Origin: Arenimonas sp. GDDSR-1
Lineage (GTDB): Bacteria > Pseudomonadota > Gammaproteobacteria > Xanthomonadales > Xanthomonadaceae
NCBI RefSeq assembly: GCF_025980345.1
Contig: NZ_JAPDUI010000003.1
Coordinates: 1 to 60,291 of the forward strand
Direction: 5' to 3'
Length of the DNA stretch: 60,291 nt
Under the pieces are notes generated by a model. The model had not been told where the DNA came from. It saw only the letters and a list, made by a program, of their open reading frames with translations, and did not search any database. The position numbers and the translations under genes were made by a program. Below are positions 17,751 to 26,773 of the stretch, piece after piece. Each line of letters opens with the position of its first letter. Positions within the stretch are counted from its first letter, which is position 1.

Positions 17751-18172
17751 GCGGACTCCGCGGTTTGTTGGATGAAGGCCAGCAGGGCCGAAAAACCGTT
17801 GCTGCGTGTCGGTGACAGGTGCCTGCTCAGACCGATGGTCTGGACGAAATCCGCAGGCGTGCCGCGGATTTCTTCAGCAGAACGCCCTGAGTAGACCCGA
17901 AGTGCCAGATAAACCAGACCGGAAACGATGCTGGAATCGGAAGCCGCCGAAAAAAACAGCCGGCCATCCCGGACATGCGGCACGATCCAGACCTTCGACT
18001 GGCAACCCTGCAGGCGGTTGGCTTCGGTTTTCCATTCCTCGGCGAAGGGCGGCAGGCGTTTGCCGAGATCGATCAGATACTGGTAACGCTCCGACCAATC
18101 GCCGAAGAAGGCGAATTCTTCGACAATGGCGTCTTGGGCCTCTGCAGCCGTGGGCTCTGTCGGCAAAAGCAT
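17747..18172 (-). CDS. sufE: SufE-like sulfur acceptor protein
   Basis: 141 residues. SufE accepts persulfide sulfur from the cysteine desulfurase SufS and passes it to the SufBCD scaffold. The conserved active cysteine is Cys57 in ANRLQGCQSKVWIV, preceded by RYQYLIDLGKRLPP and followed by ASDSSIVSGLVYLALRVYSGRS, all standard for the family. It lies between cysS and the DUF885 gene with 1-bp and 4-bp overlaps. sufS and sufBCD are not in the window. Confidence 0.93.
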   Translation of the reverse strand: MLLPTEPTAAEAQDAIVEEFAFFGDWSERYQYLIDLGKRLPPFAEEWKTEANRLQGCQSKVWIVPHVRDGRLFFSAASDSSIVSGLVYLALRVYSGRSAEEIRGTPADFVQTIGLSRHLSPTRSNGFSALLAFIQQTAESA

Positions 18173-19542
18173 CAGGCCCGCTTCCAGCGCACACCCTGAG
18201 GGGTGTCTTCCAGCAGAATGCCCTCATCGGCCAGCTGCTTGCGGATGGCATCGGCACGGGCGAAATCCCGGTTACTCTTGGCAGCAACGCGTTCATCGAC
18301 CAGACCCTGGATCCGGGCGTCATCGCTGCCGTCCGCGCCTTTGGCAAACCACGCTTCGGGAGTCTGCTGCAGCAGACCGAGCGCGGATGCCGCACCCAGA
18401 AGCTGAGCTTTCAGGTGCGCGCGTTCGGCCGCATGCTCGCTGCGCCGGGCCTGGCCGGCCAGATTCGCGATTTCAGCCAGGGCCTGGGGCGTGTTGAGGT
18501 CATCGCACAAAGCCATTTCGATGCTTTCCGGAATGGCCATGGTACCGGCTTCGACATCGCCCAGATCCCGAAGCGTGCCGTACAGACGGTCGAGCGTTTT
18601 CACACTCTGCTCGATCAGCGCATCGGACCAGTCCAGCGGCTGCCGGTAGTGCGCGGACAGCAGGGCATAACGCAGGGCTTCCGGCGGGTGTCTTTCCAGC
18701 AGCTCATGCAGGATGCTGACATTGCCGACCGATTTCGACATCTTGCTGCCGCCGAAATTGAGCATGCCGTTGTGCAGCCAGAAGCGCGCGAACACCTTGC
18801 CGCCATGCGCGCAGGTGCTCTGCGCGATTTCATTTTCATGATGCGGAAACTGCAGGTCGACGCCGCCGGCATGGATATCGATGGTTTCGCCCAGATGCGC
18901 CTCGCTCATGGCCGAGCATTCGATGTGCCAGCCCGGTCGGCCGATGCCCCAGGGCGAGTCCCAGCCGGGCAGGTCGGGGGTAGAGGGTTTCCACAGCACG
19001 AAGTCGCCCGGGTGGCGCTTGTAGGGCGCCACTTCAACGCGAGCGCCGGCAATCATTTCATCCAGACTGCGGCGCGACAGTTGTCCGTATTCGGCGTAGC
19101 TGTCGACCGCGAACAGCACATGGCCTTCGGCGGCATAGGCATGACCGGCGGCGATCAGGCGTTCGATCATCGCGATGATGTGCGGGATGTGGTCGGTGGC
19201 ATGCGGTTCGATGTCGGGCGGCTGGATGCCGAGCGCGGCCATGTCGGCACGGTAGATGGCAGTGTATTTGTCGGTAATGGTCGAGATCGGTACATCCAAG
19301 GCCTTGGCGGCGGCGTTGATTTTGTCATCGACATCGGTGATGTTGCGCGCATAGGTCACTTTTGCATAGCGCCGGCGCAGCAGTTTGATCAGGACATCGA
19401 ACACCACCGGACCGCGGGCATTGCCGATATGGACATAGTTATAGACCGTCGGGCCGCACAGATAGACGGTGACGTTGGCCGCGTCGGCAGGGCTGAAAGC
19501 TTCCAGCCGGCGGTGCAGATTGTTGTATAAATGAAGGCTCAT
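18172..19542 (-). CDS. cysS: Cysteinyl-tRNA synthetase
   Basis: 456-residue class I synthetase charging tRNA-Cys. [21 protein letters not shown] contains the zinc cysteine and the HIGN form of [18 protein letters not shown] and HHENEIAQS carry the remaining zinc ligands, and SKMSKSVGN is the KMSKS loop. The ATG at 19542 has no Shine-Dalgarno sequence; TAAAAT on the minus strand (19554-19549) ends 6 nt before it, so the mRNA may be leaderless. It heads the cysS-sufE-DUF885 run and is divergent from the arginine operon. Confidence 0.96.
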
Positions 19543-19597: not shown

Positions 19598-19626
19598 TTG
19601 CCGGAGCGGGGAATTTGGCCCATAAT
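19598..19626 (+). promoter_or_regulatory. Promoter of the arginine operon leader
   Basis: TTGCCG (19598-19603) and CATAAT (19621-19626) are separated by 17 bp, four and five matches to the sigma-70 consensus. The expected start of transcription is about 19633, which coincides with the ATG of the leader ORF. No ArgR-type box is evident nearby. Confidence 0.55.
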
Positions 19627-19632
19627 CAAGCG

Positions 19633-19728
19633 ATGAATCCGGATTTCTCCGCCGTTGAACTGCTCTCGTCCGCGCGTCTTGCGTCGTCGATGACGTCGCG
19701 TGCCCGCCGACCGTTGCCGAAAAGTTAG
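19633..19728 (+). CDS. Putative arginine leader peptide of the argF attenuator
   Basis: 31-codon ORF ending at TAG 19726-19728. It contains four arginine codons: CGT at 19675 and then CGT, CGC and CGA at 19699, 19705 and 19708. The C-terminus reads SRARRPLPKS. An in-frame ATG at 19690 would give a 12-residue version that keeps the Arg cluster. There is no Shine-Dalgarno sequence; the -10 element ends 6 nt before the first ATG, so leaderless translation is plausible. The Arg cluster lies 18-30 nt before the antiterminator strand, the distance needed for a stalled ribosome to leave that strand free, while a ribosome at the stop codon would cover it. No earlier plus-strand gene reads into this region. 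Function is inferred from geometry; the peptide itself is not of a known family. Confidence 0.6.
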   Translation: MNPDFSAVELLSSARLASSMTSRARRPLPKS

Positions 19729-19785
19729 CTGGGTCTCCGGATTTTTTGTCTTTTCCATTGAAACCCAGCCCCGGCTGGGTTTTTT
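19728..19785 (+). promoter_or_regulatory. Transcription attenuator of the arginine operon (antiterminator/terminator switch)
   Basis: GCTGGGT occurs twice, at 19728-19734 and 19774-19780. Each copy can pair with the single ACCCAGC at 19763-19769. Pairing of the first copy gives a 7-bp antiterminator; pairing of the second gives the terminator hairpin. The two structures exclude each other. The first copy starts within the leader stop codon, so a terminating ribosome would mask it and favour the terminator, while a ribosome stalled on the upstream Arg codons would favour read-through into argF. No strong protective 1:2 hairpin was found. Confidence 0.65.
19761..19785 (+). terminator. Intrinsic terminator upstream of argF (attenuator terminator)
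   Basis: AAACCCAGC (19761-19769), loop CCCG and GCTGGGTTT (19774-19782) run into a six-T tract at 19780-19785. It reads only on the plus strand; the opposite side has just three T. It lies 26 bp before argF, with no plus-strand gene other than the leader ORF for the previous several kilobases. Confidence 0.85.
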
Positions 19786-19811
19786 CGTTTCCGCACCCCT
19801 CGAAGGATTCC

Positions 19812-20831
19812 ATGATGCAGCACTTTCTCAACACGCAGGATTGGTCGGTGGACGGCCTGCAGTACCTGTTGGCCAAGGCCAGCGAGTTCAAGGCCAATAA
19901 GCTCGGCGACCAGCTCAAGGGCCGTTCGATCGCGCTGCTGTTCTTCAACCCCTCGATGCGCACCCGGACCAGCTTCGAGCTCGGCGCGTTCCAGCTGGGC
20001 GCGCATGCCGTGGTGCTGCAGCCCGGCAAGGATGCCTGGCCGATCGAGTTCGAGCTCGGCACGGCGATGGACGGCGATACCGAAGAACACATCATCGAAG
20101 TCGCCAGGGTATTGTCCGGCTACGTCGATCTGATCGCGGTGCGCGCCTTCCCCAAGTTCGTGGATTGGCAGCACGACCGCCAGGACAAGGTGCTGAATGC
20201 CTTTGCCAAATACGCGACGGTGCCGGTCATCAACATGGAAACCATCACCCACCCCTGTCAGGAGCTGGCGCACATCCTCGCCCTGCAGGAGCAGTTCGCC
20301 ACCCGCGACCTGCGGGGCAGGAAGTACGTGCTGACCTGGACTTATCATCCCAAAGCGCTGAATACGGCCGTGGCCAACTCCGCACTGACCATCGCCACGC
20401 GCATGGGGATGGACGTCACTCTGCTTTGCCCGAACGAACAGTATCTGCTGGATGAACGTTACCTGGGTTGGGCCGAATCCAATGCCGCGGCTTCCGGCGG
20501 CTCGTTCACCGTCAGCCACGATATCGCCGCCAGCTATGCCGGTGCCGATGTGGTGTATGCCAAGAGCTGGGGTGCGCTGCCGTACTTCGGCAACTGGGAA
20601 GCCGAAAAACCGATGCGTGAACAGTACAAACATTTCATCGTCGATGAAGCGAAAATGGCGATGACCAATGGCGGCGTGTTCTCGCACTGCCTGCCGCTGC
20701 GCCGCAACATCAAAGCCACCGATGCGGTCATGGACTCCAAGGCCTGCATCGCGGTTCAGGAAGCCGAAAACCGCCTGCATGTCCAGAAAGCCATCATGGA
20801 CACCCTCATCAACCACCCTGAAATCCGTTAA
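19812..20831 (+). CDS. argF': N-acetylornithine carbamoyltransferase
   Basis: 339 residues, the exact length of the Xanthomonas enzyme, which carbamoylates N-acetyl-L-ornithine to N-acetylcitrulline instead of using ornithine. [18 protein letters not shown] replaces the STRTR carbamoyl-phosphate loop. [20 protein letters not shown] carries the acetyl-group recognition region and [16 protein letters not shown] the substrate loop, while [23 protein letters not shown] is the C-terminal catalytic Cys-Leu-Pro motif. AAGGA precedes the double ATG (19812, 19815); the second has better spacing. It is the first structural gene of the arginine operon, behind the attenuator, with 10 bp to argG. Confidence 0.95.
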
Positions 20832-20841
20832 AGGAATCCCC

Positions 20842-22041
20842 ATGTCGAAAGATGTCGTTCTCTCGTTCTCCGGCGGACTGGACACCAGTTTCTGCATCCC
20901 GTATCTGCAGGAGCAGGGCTATGCGGTGCATACCGTGTTCGCCAACACCGGCGGCGTCGGCGCCGAAGAGCTTGCCTACATCGAACGGCGTGCCGCCGAA
21001 CTCGGTGCCGCCAGCCATGTCACGCTTGATCTGGCCCAGGATCTGTTCGAATCGTTCGTGACGCCCTTCGTGTGGTCCGGCGAGAAGTACCAGAATCAGT
21101 ATCCGCTGCTGGTTTCCGACCGCTATCTGATCGTGCAGCACACCCTGGCCCGCTGCGCGGAACTGGGAACGCGAACCGTGGCACACGGCTGTACCGGCAT
21201 GGGCAACGATCAGGTCCGTTTCGACGTGTCCATCCAGTCGCTGGGCGATTACGACATCCTTGCGCCGATCCGCGAAATCCAGAAAGCACATACCCACGTC
21301 CGCCAGTACGAGCAGGACTATCTGGAGCAGCGCGGTTTTGCCGTTCCGGCCAAGCAGAAAGCCTATACCATCAACGAAAACGTGCTCGGCATCACCCTCT
21401 CGGGCGGTGAAATCGATCAATGGCAGGCGCCCGGCCCGGAGCTCAAAGGCTGGTGCGCCAAACGTTCCGATTGGCCGTCCGAAGCACTCGAAGTGCGCAT
21501 TGGTTTCGAAAACGGCGTTGCCGTGAGTCTTGATGGAAACGCCATGCCCGGCGGTGAAATGCTCAAGGAGCTCAATCGCCGGTTCGCCGCCTATGGGGTC
21601 GGTTGCGGCATGTATACCGGCGACACCACCATCGGCCTCAAAGGCCGCATTGTGTTCGAAGCCCCGGGGCTCACCGCACTGCAGACCGCCCATCAGGCCT
21701 TGGAGGAAGCCGTCCTGAGCAAACAGCAGAACCGCTTCAAACCGGTGGTCGGCCGCAAGTGGGTGGAGCTGGTTTATGAAGGATTTTTCTTCGATCCGCT
21801 CAAAGCCGATCTGGAAGCCTATCTGAAGGCCAGCCAGTCCTGCGTCAATGGTGTCGTCACCCTGCGTACCGAAGGCGGTTCGGTCACCGCCATCGCCGTG
21901 GATTCCAAACACATCCTGCAGGCCAAAGGCGCCACTTATGCGCAATCGGCCGACTGGGGCGCGACCGAAGCCGAAGGCTTCATCCGTCTGTTCGGCATGA
22001 GCTCGAATCTGTGGGCGAAGGTGAACGGTGACCGCAAGTGA
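20842..22041 (+). CDS. argG: Argininosuccinate synthase
   Basis: 399 residues. In the acetylated pathway it acts after deacetylation, joining citrulline and aspartate with ATP. The N-terminal pyrophosphatase-loop motif is [16 protein letters not shown], followed by [18 protein letters not shown]. The segments [14 protein letters not shown] and [18 protein letters not shown] are family-typical. AAAGGA precedes ATG 20842. The stop overlaps the GTG start of the next gene. It is somewhat shorter than E. coli ArgG (447) and of the ordinary bacterial type. Confidence 0.93.
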
Positions 22042-23123
22042 ATGACCTCCTGCTGTCGCGCACCTTGACGCATTTAAAGGCCTTGGTGGCGTTCGATACC
22101 CAGAATCCGCCGCGCCGGATCGGTACCGGCGGCATTTTCGATTATCTGCAAGCGCAGCTTCCGGGCTTTACCTGCACGCTGACCGATCACGGCGCCGGGG
22201 CGGTGTCGCTGCTGGCCGTGCGCGGTACGCCGACAACCCTGTTCAATGTGCACCTCGATACCGTTCCGGCGGCCCCGGGCTGGTCGCAGGATCCGCACGT
22301 GCTCTCGGTCGATGAGCACCGCGCCATCGGTTTGGGGGCTTGCGACATCAAGGGCGCCGCAGCGGCCCTGTTGGCCGCAGCCGAAGTGACAAGAGGAGAC
22401 GCCGCATTCCTGTTCAGCAGCGATGAGGAGGCCAATGATGCGCGTTGCATCGCGGCATTCCTGGCAACCGATCATGGCTTTACCGATGTCATCGTGTCCG
22501 AACCCACCGGATGTCAGGCGGTACTGGCGCACCGCGGCATCAGCGCGGCCATGGTCCGCTTCATCGGAATCTCCGGGCATGCTTCGAAAATCAGCGACCC
22601 GATGCAGAGCGCCGTGCACAAGGCACTGCGCTGGGGCAGTGCCGCTCTGGACCTTGCCGCCAGCCAGTCCCATCACCGTTTCGGCGGCTTGACCGGCATG
22701 CCGTTCAATATCGGGAAAATTGAAGGGGGTATCAAAGCCAACATGATTGCCGCGTCGGCCGAACTTCGTCTGGGGTTCCGTCCGTTGCCGACGCAATCGG
22801 CCGCTGAGCTCCATGCCGGATTTGCGGCCTTGATGCCGGACACTGATTACGACATCACTTTCGCCGGACCGCCACTGCCTGCCGGTGACACCGCGCAGGC
22901 CGAACAGCGGCGCCTGCAGGCCCGCGATTTCGCCGATGGCCTGAATCTTCCGATCGGCCACGCCGTCGATTTCTGGACCGAAGCTGCCCTGTTTTCCCAG
23001 GCCGGGCTGAATGCCATCGTGTTCGGGCCGGGCGATATCGCCCAGGCGCACACGGCCGATGAATGGGTCGCGCTGGCGCAGCTGCAGAAGGCCGCAGACC
23101 ACTATAAAACCATCCTGGAATGA
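22038..23123 (+). CDS. argE': N-acetylcitrulline deacetylase (M20 family)
   Basis: 361 residues from GTG 22038, which overlaps the argG stop by 4 bp (GTGA). It is an M20 metallo-deacetylase with metal-site motifs [24 protein letters not shown] (bridging Asp), FSSDEEAND (catalytic Glu pair) and VSEPTG, plus a dimerisation lid between. In Xanthomonas the orthologue removes acetate from N-acetylcitrulline. The position between argG and argAB, with an acetylornithine carbamoyltransferase upstream, supports that substrate over acetylornithine. It ends one base before the next start region. Confidence 0.9.
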
Positions 23124-23124
23124 C

Positions 23125-24453
23125 ATGAACCACGACAGCCCCATCCGCGATACCATCGTGCGCCTGCTCAGCAACATCGGTAGTGCCAAGGAAATCCAGC
23201 AATACCTCAAGCGTTTCTCGCAGCGCGATGCGTCACGCTTTGCCGTGGTCAAAGTCGGCGGTGCCATCCTGCGCGATGATCTCGAGGCGCTGGTCAGTTC
23301 GCTCGGGTTCCTGCAGCAGGTCGGTCTGACCCCGATCGTCATCCATGGCGCCGGACCGCAGCTGGATGCCGAGCTGGCCGCCGAAGGCGTGCGCAAGCGC
23401 ACGGTTGACGGCCTGCGGGTCACCACCCGGAAAGTGCTGAAGACGGTGCGCCGCGTGTGTCTGCAGGAAAATCTGCGGCTGGTCGAGGCCCTGCAGGTGC
23501 AGGGCATCCGCGCCGTGTCGCTCAATTCCGGGGTGCTGGAAGCCAAACTGCTGAATGCCCGGAAATACGGCATGGTCGGGAAAGTGGTCGCCGTGCATAC
23601 CGAAGCCGTGTATTCCGCGATCAAAGCCGGATCGATACCGGTGATTTCCTCGCTCGGCGAAACCGCCGACGGACAGATCGTCAACATCAATGCCGACTGG
23701 GCCGCCAACGAAGTGGTCAAGACCCTGCAGCCCTATAAAATCATCTTCCTGACCAATACCGGCGGTTTGTTGGACGGAGATGACAACATCATCGACTCCA
23801 TCAATCTCAGTACCGACTACGCGCGTCTGATGCAGCAGCCCTGGCTGCATTCGGGCATGAAGGTGAAAATCGAGCAGATTGCCGCGCTGCTGGCCGATCT
23901 GCCGAGCGACAGTTCGGTCTCGATCACCAAGCCCTCGGAGCTGGCCAAGGAACTGTTCACCCACCGTGGTTCCGGCACATTGGTGCGCAAAGGGCAACGT
24001 ATTCTATCGGCCGACCGTTGGTCGAAGATCGACAAGACCCGCTTGCAGAAACTGATGGAATCCGGATTCGGACGCAAGATGAAGGCGGGCTATTTCCGCG
24101 ATAATGTTCCAGCAAAAATCTACTACAGTGCCGACTACCGGGCGGCGTTGGTGCTTCTGGCGGTGGATGGCGCCATGTATCTGGATAAATTCGCCGTTGC
24201 CGACGATGCCCAAGGCGAAGGCCTCGGTGCGGCGGCCTGGTCGGTGATGCGTCAGCACACGCCGAAACTGTTCTGGCGGTCGCGTCACGACAATCCGGTC
24301 AATGCCTTTTATCTGCAGGCGGCCGATGGTTGCCTGAAATGCGGGCATTGGACGGTATTCTGGTATGGCCTTTCCGGCTTTGCGGAAATCGAGCAGGCCG
24401 TGTCCTATTGCCTCGGCAAACCGGCAAGTTTCCACGAGCAGGAGCCGTCATGA
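23125..24453 (+). CDS. argB: Bifunctional N-acetylglutamate synthase/kinase
   Basis: 442 residues. The N-terminal amino-acid kinase domain (about 30-290) has [36 protein letters not shown] and a substrate loop around [12 protein letters not shown]. The C-terminal vertebrate-type acetyltransferase (about 295-442) has [36 protein letters not shown]. Such NAGS/K fusions occur in xanthomonads and a few other bacteria and resemble the mitochondrial urea-cycle enzyme. They make and phosphorylate N-acetylglutamate, the first two steps of the pathway, and are usually feedback-controlled by arginine. The ATG at 23125 follows the previous stop by 1 base; the end overlaps argC by 4 bp. Confidence 0.94.
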
Positions 24454-25406
24454 ACCCCGCCAACCGCATTTACCGCATCGGTCTGATCGGCGCCCGCGGC
24501 CATGTCGGCGGTGAGCTGATCCGTCTGCTGGCGGGGCATCCACAACTCGGGATTGCCTTTGTGTCCTCGCGGGAACGCGAAGGGCAGGCAGTGACTGATT
24601 TCGAACCGCAGGCGCCGGACGGTCTGCGTTATGTCAATTACGGCCCGGGCCAGGCCATCGAGGCCGGCGCCGATGCGGTGATTCTGGCCCTGCCCAATGG
24701 CCATGCCGCGCAATGGGCGCAGGCTTTCGATGCCGCCGGCAGTCCGTCGCTGCTGATCGATCTTTCGGCGGATTTCCGTTTTGATCCCGAATGGTATTAC
24801 GGTCTTCCCGAGCTGACCCGGAGCGGCTATGCCGGACAGCGCCGCATCAGCAATCCCGGCTGTTATGCCACCGCCATGCAGCTGGCCATTGCCCCGATGC
24901 GGGATGTGCTCTCCGGACCGGTCAACTGTTTCGGGGTTTCCGGCTATTCCGGGGCCGGCACCACACCCTCGGATAAAAATAATCCGGAAAAGCTCAGGGA
25001 CAATCTGATGCCGTATGCCTTGGCAGATCATCTGCATGAGCGTGAAGTCAGCACCCGTATGGCAACGTCCGTCCAGTTCATGCCGCATGTGGCCCCGCAT
25101 TTCCGTGGCCTCTCGATTACGGCCAATATGATCTTGGACCAGCGCTTCAGTGCCGATCAGGTCATGGCCCGATACGTGCAACGCTTCGGAAATGAACCCT
25201 GCATCCGGATTGGTAGGGACATTCCCCAGACCAGTGCGGTCGCAGGAACGGTCTTGGCGCATCTCGGCGGATTCACGCTGGCCGACGAGGGCCGCCGTCT
25301 GGTGGTGGTTTCGGTGCTGGACAATCTGCTGAAAGGTGCCGCCAGCCAGGCGCTGCAGAATATCAATCTGGGCCTCGGATTGCCCGAAACCATGGGGGTG
25401 TTATGA
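24450..25406 (+). CDS. argC: N-acetyl-gamma-glutamyl-phosphate reductase
   Basis: 318 residues. Reduces N-acetylglutamyl phosphate to the semialdehyde with NADPH. The Rossmann start [22 protein letters not shown], the catalytic Cys138 in [14 protein letters not shown] and [19 protein letters not shown] are clear. AGGAG lies directly before ATG 24450, which overlaps the argB stop (ATGA). It is coupled to argH by another 4-bp overlap. ArgD is not in the window. Confidence 0.95.
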
Positions 25407-26692
25407 ATCATCAGGTCATCTGGGCCAAGCCCGGCTTTGAAATCAATCACGCCATCCAGAACTTCCTGGCCGGCGATGACATCCTGCTGGATGCCGCACT
25501 GTTTCCCTATGACATCAGCGCCAGCCGGGCGCATGCCCGTGGTCTGGAACGGATCGGCATTCTGGACCGGGAAGAAACCCGGCAGCTGCTCGAACAGCTC
25601 GACCGCCTGGATCAGGCCTTTGCTTCCGGGGATTTCAGCCTTGATGACCGCTTCGAAGACGGACACAGCGCCATCGAATGGTTTCTCACCGAGGCGCTCG
25701 GCGATACCGGCCGCAAGATCCACACCGGCCGCAGCCGCAATGACCAGGTTTTGGTTGCCTCGCGGCTGTGGTTGAAAGACCAGTTGCTGGCCTTGGCGGA
25801 GCTGTGCCGGAAAATCGCCGACGTCAGTCTGCAGCGTGCGGAATCGGAAGCGCTGGTCGCGTTTCCGGGCTACACCCACCTGCAACGGGCCATGGTGTCT
25901 TCCTTGGGCATGTGGTGGGGCGCATGGGCGGAAGCCTACATCGACGACGCCCAACGGGCAGGGCAATGCCTGTCATGGATCGATGCCAACCCGCTCGGCA
26001 GTGCTTCCGGCTTCGGGGTCAATCTGCCGCTGGACCGGGCCTTCTGTTCCGAAGCGCTTGGTTTCGCCCGCACCCAGCAGATCGCGACCTATGCCCAGCT
26101 GTCGCGCGGCAAGTTCGAACTGGCCGCGCTCGACGCGCTACTGTCGGCCATGGGTGATCTGCGCCGTCTGGCCTGGGATCTGTCCTTGTTCAGCACCAGC
26201 GAGTTCGGATTCGTGCATCTGCCGCCGGAATACCAGACCGGCAGTTCGCTGATGCCCAACAAACGCAATCCGGATCTGATCGAGCTGCTGCGCGCTTCCT
26301 ATGCCGTGGTTTCTGGGGCGCGTTCGGAACTGGAGCAGGGATTGTCCCTGCCATCGGGATATCACCGAGACCTGCAATACACCAAGGCGCCGGTCATGCG
26401 CGGCTTCCGGCATGGGCTGGCAGCGCTGGCCCTGGTGCCGGATCTGTTGGCCAAATTGGACTGGAATGCAGAACGGATTGCCTCGGCCATGGAGCCATCG
26501 ATGATGGCGACCGATCTGGCGGTGGATTTTGCCAGAAACGGCGTTCCTTTCAGGGCCGCGTATCAGCAGGCTGCCGATCCGTCGAACTGGCAGGCCCGGA
26601 CCCCGGCGGAAAGTCTTTCGGCCCGGTCCTCCGAGGGTTCAGGCATCAATCTCGGACTTGAGAAACTGAAACAGCGCCTTGCGGCGCTGTGA
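25403..26692 (+). CDS. argH: Argininosuccinate lyase
   Basis: 429 residues of the fumarase/aspartase superfamily, releasing arginine and fumarate in the last step of the operon. [30 protein letters not shown] and the signature [19 protein letters not shown] are present; the last contains the catalytic serine loop. It starts at ATG 25403, overlapping the argC stop. It ends 4 bp before the convergent tRNA-Pro. A perfect hairpin overlaps its last codons. It is slightly shorter than E. coli ArgH (457), as usual for the xanthomonad type. Confidence 0.95.
26671..26690 (+). other. Stem-loop at the end of argH
   Basis: ACAGCGCC, loop TTGC, then GGCGCTGT: an 8-bp perfect stem covering the last argH codons up to the stop. 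No T-run follows, so it is not a typical intrinsic terminator. It may protect the mRNA 3' end or mark the boundary with the convergent tRNA gene. Confidence 0.5.
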
Positions 26693-26696
26693 AAGT

Positions 26697-26773
<77 letters not shown>

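Follow-up and report, generated by a model that had tools for sequence, protein, structure and literature searches.

A probable arginine-type leader-peptide attenuator upstream of argF'GEBCH in Arenimonas sp. GDDSR-1 and related families

Background

Leader-peptide attenuators control the trp, his, leu, ilv, thr, and phe operons. The leader described here, which precedes the arginine biosynthetic operon of Arenimonas sp. GDDSR-1, is like these in having codons of the end product in a short open reading frame (ORF), four strands (1 to 4), a stop codon placed to mask strand 2, and a terminator before the first gene. It is unlike them in that it would sense arginine and in its near-leaderless start, which is predicted in the window (the whole stretch of 60,291 nucleotides that was analysed) and supported by RACE in Xanthomonas. 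Also unlike the classical attenuators, it has three Arg codons that are read by one isoacceptor and end in the rare CGA, and its peptide is frozen in one clade.

In Salmonella, the orf34 leader of speF has consecutive Arg codons and a conserved peptide core, and pausing at low arginine favours expression, as described in the available part of the report (PMC6386406). It shares with the arginine leader its small size, its place upstream of a gene, its Arg codons, and a conserved core. According to the same part of that report, orf34 acts through mRNA structure, RNase G, and Rho before the ornithine decarboxylase gene, whereas the arginine leader has an intrinsic terminator and stands before arginine biosynthesis. 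When three leader peptides were compared with Pfam, no match was found up to an E-value of 10, including the family of orf34/speFL (DUF2618, PF10940), and none was found in NCBIfam.

Another leader peptide precedes carA in P. aeruginosa, for which attenuation and possible pyrimidine control have been proposed (cited in PMC4997734, from an excerpt of that paper). As far as this excerpt describes it, it is similar to the arginine leader in its position before a gene of arginine and pyrimidine synthesis and differs in the proposed control by pyrimidines. A simple scan of 26 genomes of the order revealed no evident Arg attenuator before carA: Arg-rich frames are found in 17 of the 26, and a six-T run lies within 450 nt upstream in L269 alone, where it is not beside the frame.

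The arrest peptides with RAPP or RAGP motifs (SecM, ApdA, and ApdP) are also comparable. Their arrest is demonstrated, and they are found upstream of protein localization genes, in the available portions of two reports (PMC10951233, PMC12992588). Like these peptides as described there, the arginine leader is a short ORF upstream of the gene that would be regulated and has a frozen core with Arg-Ala near the catalytic centre; unlike them, it is without Pro-Pro or Gly-Pro.

A search of open-access titles and abstracts (subscription papers being outside its scope) returned, among the matches listed, nothing on attenuation by arginine of an arginine biosynthetic operon in this group; no open-access paper was found for the leader peptide string.

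Results and Discussion

Operon and leader anatomy

In the window, argF' encodes N-acetylornithine carbamoyltransferase (19812-20831, plus strand; NCBIfam equivalog PRK04523, 593 bits) and is the first gene that would be controlled. The operon is complete, with the order argF'-argG-argE-argB-argC-argH as identified by NCBIfam models. On the plus strand, argF' is followed by argG for argininosuccinate synthase (20842-22041, start inferred), argE for acetylornithine deacetylase (22038-23123), an argB-type gene for a long form of acetylglutamate kinase of about 442 amino acids (23125-24453, start inferred), argC for N-acetyl-gamma-glutamyl-phosphate reductase (24450-25406), and argH for argininosuccinate lyase (25403-26692). 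Just past argH, a tRNA-Pro(CGG) gene is found on the minus strand (26700-26773). The nearest named relative is Arenimonas maotaiensis, with 93% ArgF' identity.

A sigma-70-like promoter, TTGCCG-17-CATAAT, is found upstream of argF' on the plus strand (19598-19626). Its -35 box (TTGCCG, 19598-19603) and -10 box (CATAAT, 19621-19626) match the consensus at 9 of 12 positions, and the consensus scan found one such promoter where 0.2 are expected in shuffles. From these boxes the transcript is predicted to start at about 19632-19634, at or within about 2 nt of the ATG of the leader ORF. This plus-strand ORF of 31 codons (19633-19728; MNPDFSAVELLSSARLASSMTSRARRPLPKS*) is nearly leaderless by prediction and is kept in relatives. 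Its conserved core, MTSRARR (19690-19710), includes the regulatory Arg codons CGT (19699), CGC (19705), and CGA (19708), so that CGT-GCC-CGC-CGA occupies 19699-19710.

The four strands lie downstream of or within the end of this ORF. Strand 1 (approximately 19708-19722) pairs weakly with the region of strand 2 in a duplex test of 145 relatives, and the pairing is weak in the window itself. Strand 2, GCTGGGT (19728-19734), overlaps the leader stop codon, its first G being the last base of TAG, and lies 20 nt from the first base of the last Arg codon. Strand 3, ACCCAGC (19763-19769), is common to the antiterminator and the terminator. The intrinsic terminator (19760-19785) consists of a hairpin at 19760-19783, in which strand 3, the loop CCCG, and strand 4 (GCTGGGT, 19774-19780) follow each other, and of a run of six T (19780-19785); the argF' ATG at 19812 follows 26 nt further on. 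The ribosome binding site of argF', GAAGGA, is at 19802-19807. In the window the terminator folds at -14.9 kcal/mol (z = -3.8), with none of 200 shuffles as good, and the alternative pairing of strands 2 and 3 folds at -15.8 (z = -1.9), with 9 of 200 shuffles as good.

The leader of the window has a second T run (19743-19748), and its predicted fold has a long-range pairing of AAUCCGGAU with CUCCGGAUU (19635-19643 with 19737-19745). This second T run is absent from L032, the closest named relative of the window, and is possibly a local oddity.

A first-pass annotation of this DNA had described most of these elements, and its description agrees with the sequence in detail. It had placed a promoter between the divergent cysS and argF', where the two boxes are found. 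The 31-codon ORF with Arg codons clustered near its end is base for base as it was given, GCTGGGT at 19728 and 19774 and the single ACCCAGC at 19763 are at exactly the positions reported, and G19728, with which the first GCTGGGT starts, is indeed part of the stop codon. The terminator with its six T and its 26-nt distance from argF' was also located exactly. Since cysS (18172-19542, minus strand) is divergent, no other gene on the plus strand needs a terminator at 19760-19785, as the annotation had said.

Predicted mechanism

The leader has clustered Arg codons, an intrinsic terminator, and an alternative antiterminator that uses the 5' strand of the terminator, which are the features of a trp-type attenuator. 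Together with the conservation, joint strand changes, codon choice, and lack of a detectable ArgR described below, this anatomy makes it very probable that the leader senses charged tRNA-Arg as a trp/his-type attenuator, in which a ribosome decides whether transcription proceeds into argF'GEBCH. The transcript would begin no more than about 2 nt from the leader ATG. With Arg-tRNA(ICG) in short supply, the ribosome would stall at CGT, CGC, or CGA, above all at the slow CGA, and would cover strand 1. Strand 2 (GCTGGGT) would then pair with strand 3 (ACCCAGC), and the polymerase would read into argF'. When Arg-tRNA is plentiful, the ribosome would reach the stop codon on strand 2 and mask this strand. 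Strand 3 would then pair with strand 4, and transcription would end at the T run. In this scheme we infer the transcript start of the window, the positions of the ribosome, the switching, and the direction of the response.

Conservation of the MTSRARR leader

Conservation was observed in 110 loci that were picked by the ArgF' protein alone (the window's own, 29 unnamed relatives, and 80 named loci, with some genomes represented twice). The exact MTSRAR motif is found upstream of argF' in 109 of them. In the remaining locus, L109, inspection by eye showed the variant TTSRTRR, accompanied by the same strands and terminator. These 110 loci reduce to 83 distinct motif leaders.

A degenerate DNA pattern (MTSRAR followed by CG) is found in at least 264 of 398 genomes of the order, and a reversed-pattern control is found in two; the position before argF' was checked for part of the matches. 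Among the matches listed, all f1 genomes have the pattern except G332, whose leader is MASRARR, all genomes of f2 and f12 have it, and 8 of 10 genomes of f3 have it. In the two f3 exceptions argF' is at a contig edge, one match beginning at contig base 1 and the other having about 4 nt upstream. All 12 genomes of f2, f3, and f12 that were first chosen by argF' alone have the pattern just upstream of argF'. One pattern match, L184 (G167, family f9), is not before argF' and was dropped.

A total of 150 distinct MTSRARR leaders were compared; their counts at codons 0 to 6 are partly conditioned by the search pattern, and the key counts were repeated on the argF'-selected loci. The distance from start to motif is 18-20 codons in 140 of the 150, partly by construction (the script took the start nearest 19 codons). 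A Shine-Dalgarno sequence with at least 5 nt of AAGGAGGTGA precedes the leader in 1 of 150 cases and argF' in 41 of 139, and with 4 nt of AAGGAGGTGA the numbers are 15 of 150 and 88 of 139. By strict consensus, a -10 box lies 5-10 nt before the leader ATG in 20 counted cases among the 150 leaders and 24-28 nt upstream in 35. A leaderless start is supported in the window by the promoter consensus and in Xanthomonas by RACE, not across all leaders.

Terminator and strand pairing

A terminator with a score above 18 follows 148 of the 150 distinct leaders, compared with 8 of 750 dinucleotide-shuffled regions. At a lax cut-off of 13 it is found after all 150 leaders and in 124 of the 750 shuffled regions. 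The core of strands 2/3/4 is GCTGGGT/ACCCAGC/GCTGGGT in 53 leaders and GCCGGGT/ACCCGGC/GCCGGGT in 48. After 12 of the 150 leaders without a clear core were left out, 138 were scored for the variable base of strands 2:3:4, which is T:A:T in 69, C:G:C in 56, a wobble T.G:C in 10, and a misfit in three. Two of the misfits (L060 and L080) are script misreadings of strand 4, and the third (L020) is a real mismatch between strands 2 and 3. Among the divergent families, four f8 loci have terminators with CCTGG/CCAGG, and in one of these, L197, strand 2 has changed along (CCAGGTT/AACCTGG).

The strands were also swapped between genomes 40 times. Strands 2 and 3 pair with their own partners at -15.76 and in the best swap at -14.52, and strands 3 and 4 at -18.33 and -15.53. 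The helix of strands 1 and 2 is weak: its own value is -13.63, compared with -13.27 for the best of 40 swaps and -13.37 for the best of 20 letter shuffles. In L188, L189, L192, and L193 the longest uninterrupted pairing of strands 2 and 3 is just 4-5 bp. A tree test of strand change gave 5, 7, and 9 changes with two to three supported independent pairs, mostly in one direction, and is not significant; the table used for it included the misread strand-4 cores of L060 and L080. The weak helix, the short pairings, and the small number of tree changes count against the attenuator, as do the genomes with argF' but no visible leader (L195, L201, L202, and L342).

In 122 of the 139 leaders that were scored, strand 2 begins 21 nt after the first base of the last Arg codon. 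Judging from this spacing and from the classical attenuator model, a ribosome stalled at CGA would cover strand 1 and leave strand 2 free, while a ribosome at the stop codon would cover strand 2.

The terminator is the strongest local feature, and it might be asked if the hairpin is only a plain terminator or an mRNA-stability element, with regulation left to another repressor; the search for regulators covered PF01316 alone. This is very improbable, for such a model gives no function to the extra strand-4 sequence that overlaps the stop, to the clustering of the Arg codons, or to their codon choice.

Codon choice

At the three regulatory positions, CGG is observed in 1 of 450 codons, compared with 35 of 122 at Arg -5, five codons before Met (p = 1e-24). 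In 144 of 150 leaders, the regulatory series ends in CGA, compared with 14 of 1334 Arg codons (1%) that are CGA in argF' of the 80 named loci. The 83 argF'-selected leaders give the same picture (last codon CGA in 80 of 83; CGG in 1 of 249). In the divergent families, CGA accounts for 33 of 99 cluster codons and 32 of 435 Arg codons in argF' (p = 2e-10), and CGG for 1 of 99 and 98 of 435, respectively.

The tRNA-Arg genes found in the window's genome have the anticodons ACG, CCG, TCT, and CCT (30 of 40 tRNA loci scanned). In most bacteria, ICG (from ACG) reads CGT, CGC, and CGA, CGG requires the CCG tRNA, and the I:A pair is inefficient, as stated in the available part of PMC3711424. With its near-exclusive use of tRNA-Arg(ICG) codons and its preference for CGA, the leader would show plainly how codons can be chosen in an attenuator. 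Alternatively, CGA might be kept for pairing with a downstream TCG, which is present in 122 of the 144 CGA leaders and absent from 22.

Other families and ArgR

Families f4 and f6-f10 have in the same place a terminator and an Arg-run ORF, the peptides of which are unrelated to MTSRARR (e.g., ..NPRRRRVLQSTAG, ..ALRRRRRSSQRRAG, and ..VVVRRNRRRINMPG..). Two sets of divergent loci, with five f7 genomes common to both, were compared. In the first set, which is the upstream DNA of 18 of the 21 f4-f11 genomes with an argF' match, an Arg-run leader is found in 13 of 18 loci (12 by script and L194 by eye). No leader was seen in L195 (f5), L201 and L202 (f9), or L203 and L204 (f11); the Arg-rich frames given by the script in L201 and L203 were not counted, having no good terminator downstream. 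In the second set a leader is found in 26 of 28 loci (22 by script and L336, L343, L340, and L349 by eye), L342 (f9) shows none, and L338 is cut by the contig. Among 369 genomes of the class, argF' is found in five, all of them inside the order, and the survey therefore ends at the order.

Of 100 related genomes, ArgR (PF01316) was detected in the five that belong to f11 and in no other, and none is detectable in the window's genome (91% complete). Classical repressor control by ArgR therefore looks unavailable here, PF01316 being the one regulator model that the search covered. By inference, the attenuator stands in for ArgR control in most families sampled.

These comparisons strongly support the reading put forward in the first-pass annotation, that of a ribosome-mediated attenuator of the arginine type. 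Most families sampled have the ORF with its Arg codons, the shared strand, and the terminator in front of argF', and in the 138 leaders scored, with the exceptions given above, the changes in strands 2, 3, and 4 go together. The annotation had also named repressor control as the usual model in Lysobacterales; among the 100 genomes searched, ArgR was found in f11 alone.

Xoo5, an RNA already catalogued

In several f1 relatives, the leader matches an RNA that is already catalogued. The Rfam family RF02242 (Xanthomonadaceae sRNA Xoo5, 124 positions) matches 5 of 12 loci searched, all of f1, with 144 to 69 bits. These five (L030, L042, L029, L083, and L018) are above the gathering score of 50 bits, and the first position of the model always lies 2 nt upstream of the leader ATG. 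Scores below gathering were obtained for the f12 loci L137 (27 bits) and L172 (24 bits), and the window's own leader (L001) has no match at an E-value up to 1.

Xoo5 is an RNA of Xanthomonas oryzae of 124 nt that was cloned, mapped by 5'-RACE, confirmed by Northern blot, and filed as a non-coding sRNA (PMC3039613, in the available part of the text, as for the statements that follow). The gene downstream of it, PXO_00353, is N-acetylornithine carbamoyltransferase (Table 4 of PMC3039613). It is reported that Northern bands of about 130 and about 100 nt are both present in early growth and that the short one alone is present later, that the level of Xoo5 is unchanged in an hfq mutant, and that its deletion leaves the expression of the flanking genes unaffected and gives no growth phenotype in rich or minimal medium (PMC3039613). 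The lack of an effect of the deletion weighs against the attenuator. That part of the text has no mention of an ORF, Arg codons, or attenuation for Xoo5.

Because the model and Xoo5 are equal in length, the first position of RF02242 is inferred to be the RACE end. The Xoo5 data support an expressed, near-leaderless short RNA. In L030, the cloned 3' end of Xoo5 falls 8 nt before the terminator stem, and a terminated RNA there should be about 160 nt. Therefore, termination at the T run is not proven by Xoo5, and the RNA detected may be a processed form.

Xoo5 was described and named as an sRNA and detected as an RNA of 100-130 nt, and these data would also fit a trans-acting small RNA that is merely upstream of argF' and has an incidental ORF. 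This explanation has a slim chance, as the ORF evolves by synonymous changes only, the stop codon is nearly constant relative to strand 2, argF' is adjacent in the loci fetched, and unrelated Arg-run ORFs are found in the same place in other families. The unchanged level in the hfq mutant, as given in the available text, also argues against it. In an attenuator, in turn, Xoo5 would be the coding leader.

Constraint on the leader peptide

Over a span of 13 residues, the identity of non-Arg residues is 80.7% in the MTSRARR clade (f1, f2, f3, and f12), based on 20 loci that were hand-picked for spread, some of them selected by pattern, and 5.6% in 15 f7 leaders aligned ungapped at the last Arg pair. 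The divergence of ArgF' is similar in the sets compared, with a mean identity of 0.78 in the clade and 0.75 in f7. Since the clade sample was partly selected by pattern, the test was repeated on 81 argF'-selected loci.

On the tree of these 81 loci, the numbers of changes at bases 1, 2, and 3 are 0, 0, and 19 for Ala -3, 0, 0, and 24 for Thr 1, 0, 0, and 12 for Arg 3, 0, 0, and 13 for Ala 4, and 0, 0, and 9 for Arg 5. The free position -5 has 9, 7, and 20 changes. Ser 2, Ala -6, and Arg 6 vary little at base 3 too (3, 4, and 1 changes) and are less telling. Residue-specific conservation is thus present near the proposed stall site in the MTSRARR clade, the core residues changing synonymously only. 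Judged from these substitutions, selection in this clade is acting on the amino acids of the leader and not on the RNA alone. With substitutions at the core residues confined to synonymous ones, the nascent chain might take part in control in this clade.

One possibility, which we hold tentatively and at somewhat less than an even chance, is that the MTSRARR leader is a combined sensor, in which the peptide, with R-A-R just added, would delay the ribosome when CGA moves into the A site. In f1, f2, f3, and f12, the attenuator would then be a nascent-chain sensor as well: AxxAxGMTSRARR would slow the ribosome at the last CGA, depending on both Arg-tRNA and the peptide. In favour of this possibility are the frozen non-Arg residues (80.7% compared with 5.6% in f7) and the five positions given above whose first two codon bases never change on the tree. 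In RAPP-like arrest, according to the available parts of the arrest-peptide reports, the stalled ribosome has the third residue of R-A-P-P in its P site and the codon for the fourth in its A site, and R-A-R/R would align with this. The match of R-A-R/R with R-A-P/P of known arrest peptides is a lead.

Several observations weigh against this possibility. RAPP-like motifs can vary little, and RARR is not one of the forms that the same parts of these reports name; when the leader core was compared with RAPP, RGPP, RAPG, and RAGP, it was none of these, being RARR(P). The natural variants MASRARR (L351) and TTSRTRR (L109), which retain the Arg codons and are not in the 81-locus tree, depart from the frozen core; as natural mutants, they would be useful for testing the role of the peptide. 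The constant distance from start to motif is partly an artefact of the script. A leader before ilvC in the same family, seen in seven loci, also retains some non-regulatory residues.

This ilvC leader is attenuator-like, with Leu, Val, and Ile codons (..LVLVLITSPTGAGR..), and is found before ilvC in 7 of 24 ilvC loci, all of f1 (L246, L247, L248, L249, L251, L252, and L255). As a weak control, it retains some residues after the Leu/Val codons, and the peptide argument therefore rests on residues before and between the Arg codons. Another control, a His attenuator, was sought before hisG. No convincing His-rich leader was found in 29 loci; the one weak candidate, in L209, is far upstream and was set aside. 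In L206 and L209, a separate small ORF exists directly upstream of hisG. This ORF may resemble a regulator of the TrpR/YerC type.

If the leader is a combined sensor, a modest drop in charged tRNA-Arg(ICG) would lead to a sharp stall. Codons and peptide would then jointly operate an arginine attenuator that evolved in one clade, and its ancestors would be ordinary Arg-run attenuators, which are still present in sister families.

Conclusions

The leader of argF'GEBCH very probably puts an established mechanism to use in a context where it is new, and its peptide is frozen in a single clade. At the strength given above, it would add an arginine member to the leader-peptide attenuators, and Xoo5, catalogued as a non-coding sRNA, would be reinterpreted as the coding leader of an attenuator. 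Since related families share the attenuator but differ in whether its peptide is free or frozen, they would be a natural experiment on the role of the peptide beyond the regulatory codons. Such a leader would also offer much of the order (Arenimonas, Stenotrophomonas, Lysobacter, and kin) a way to regulate arginine production that needs no ArgR.
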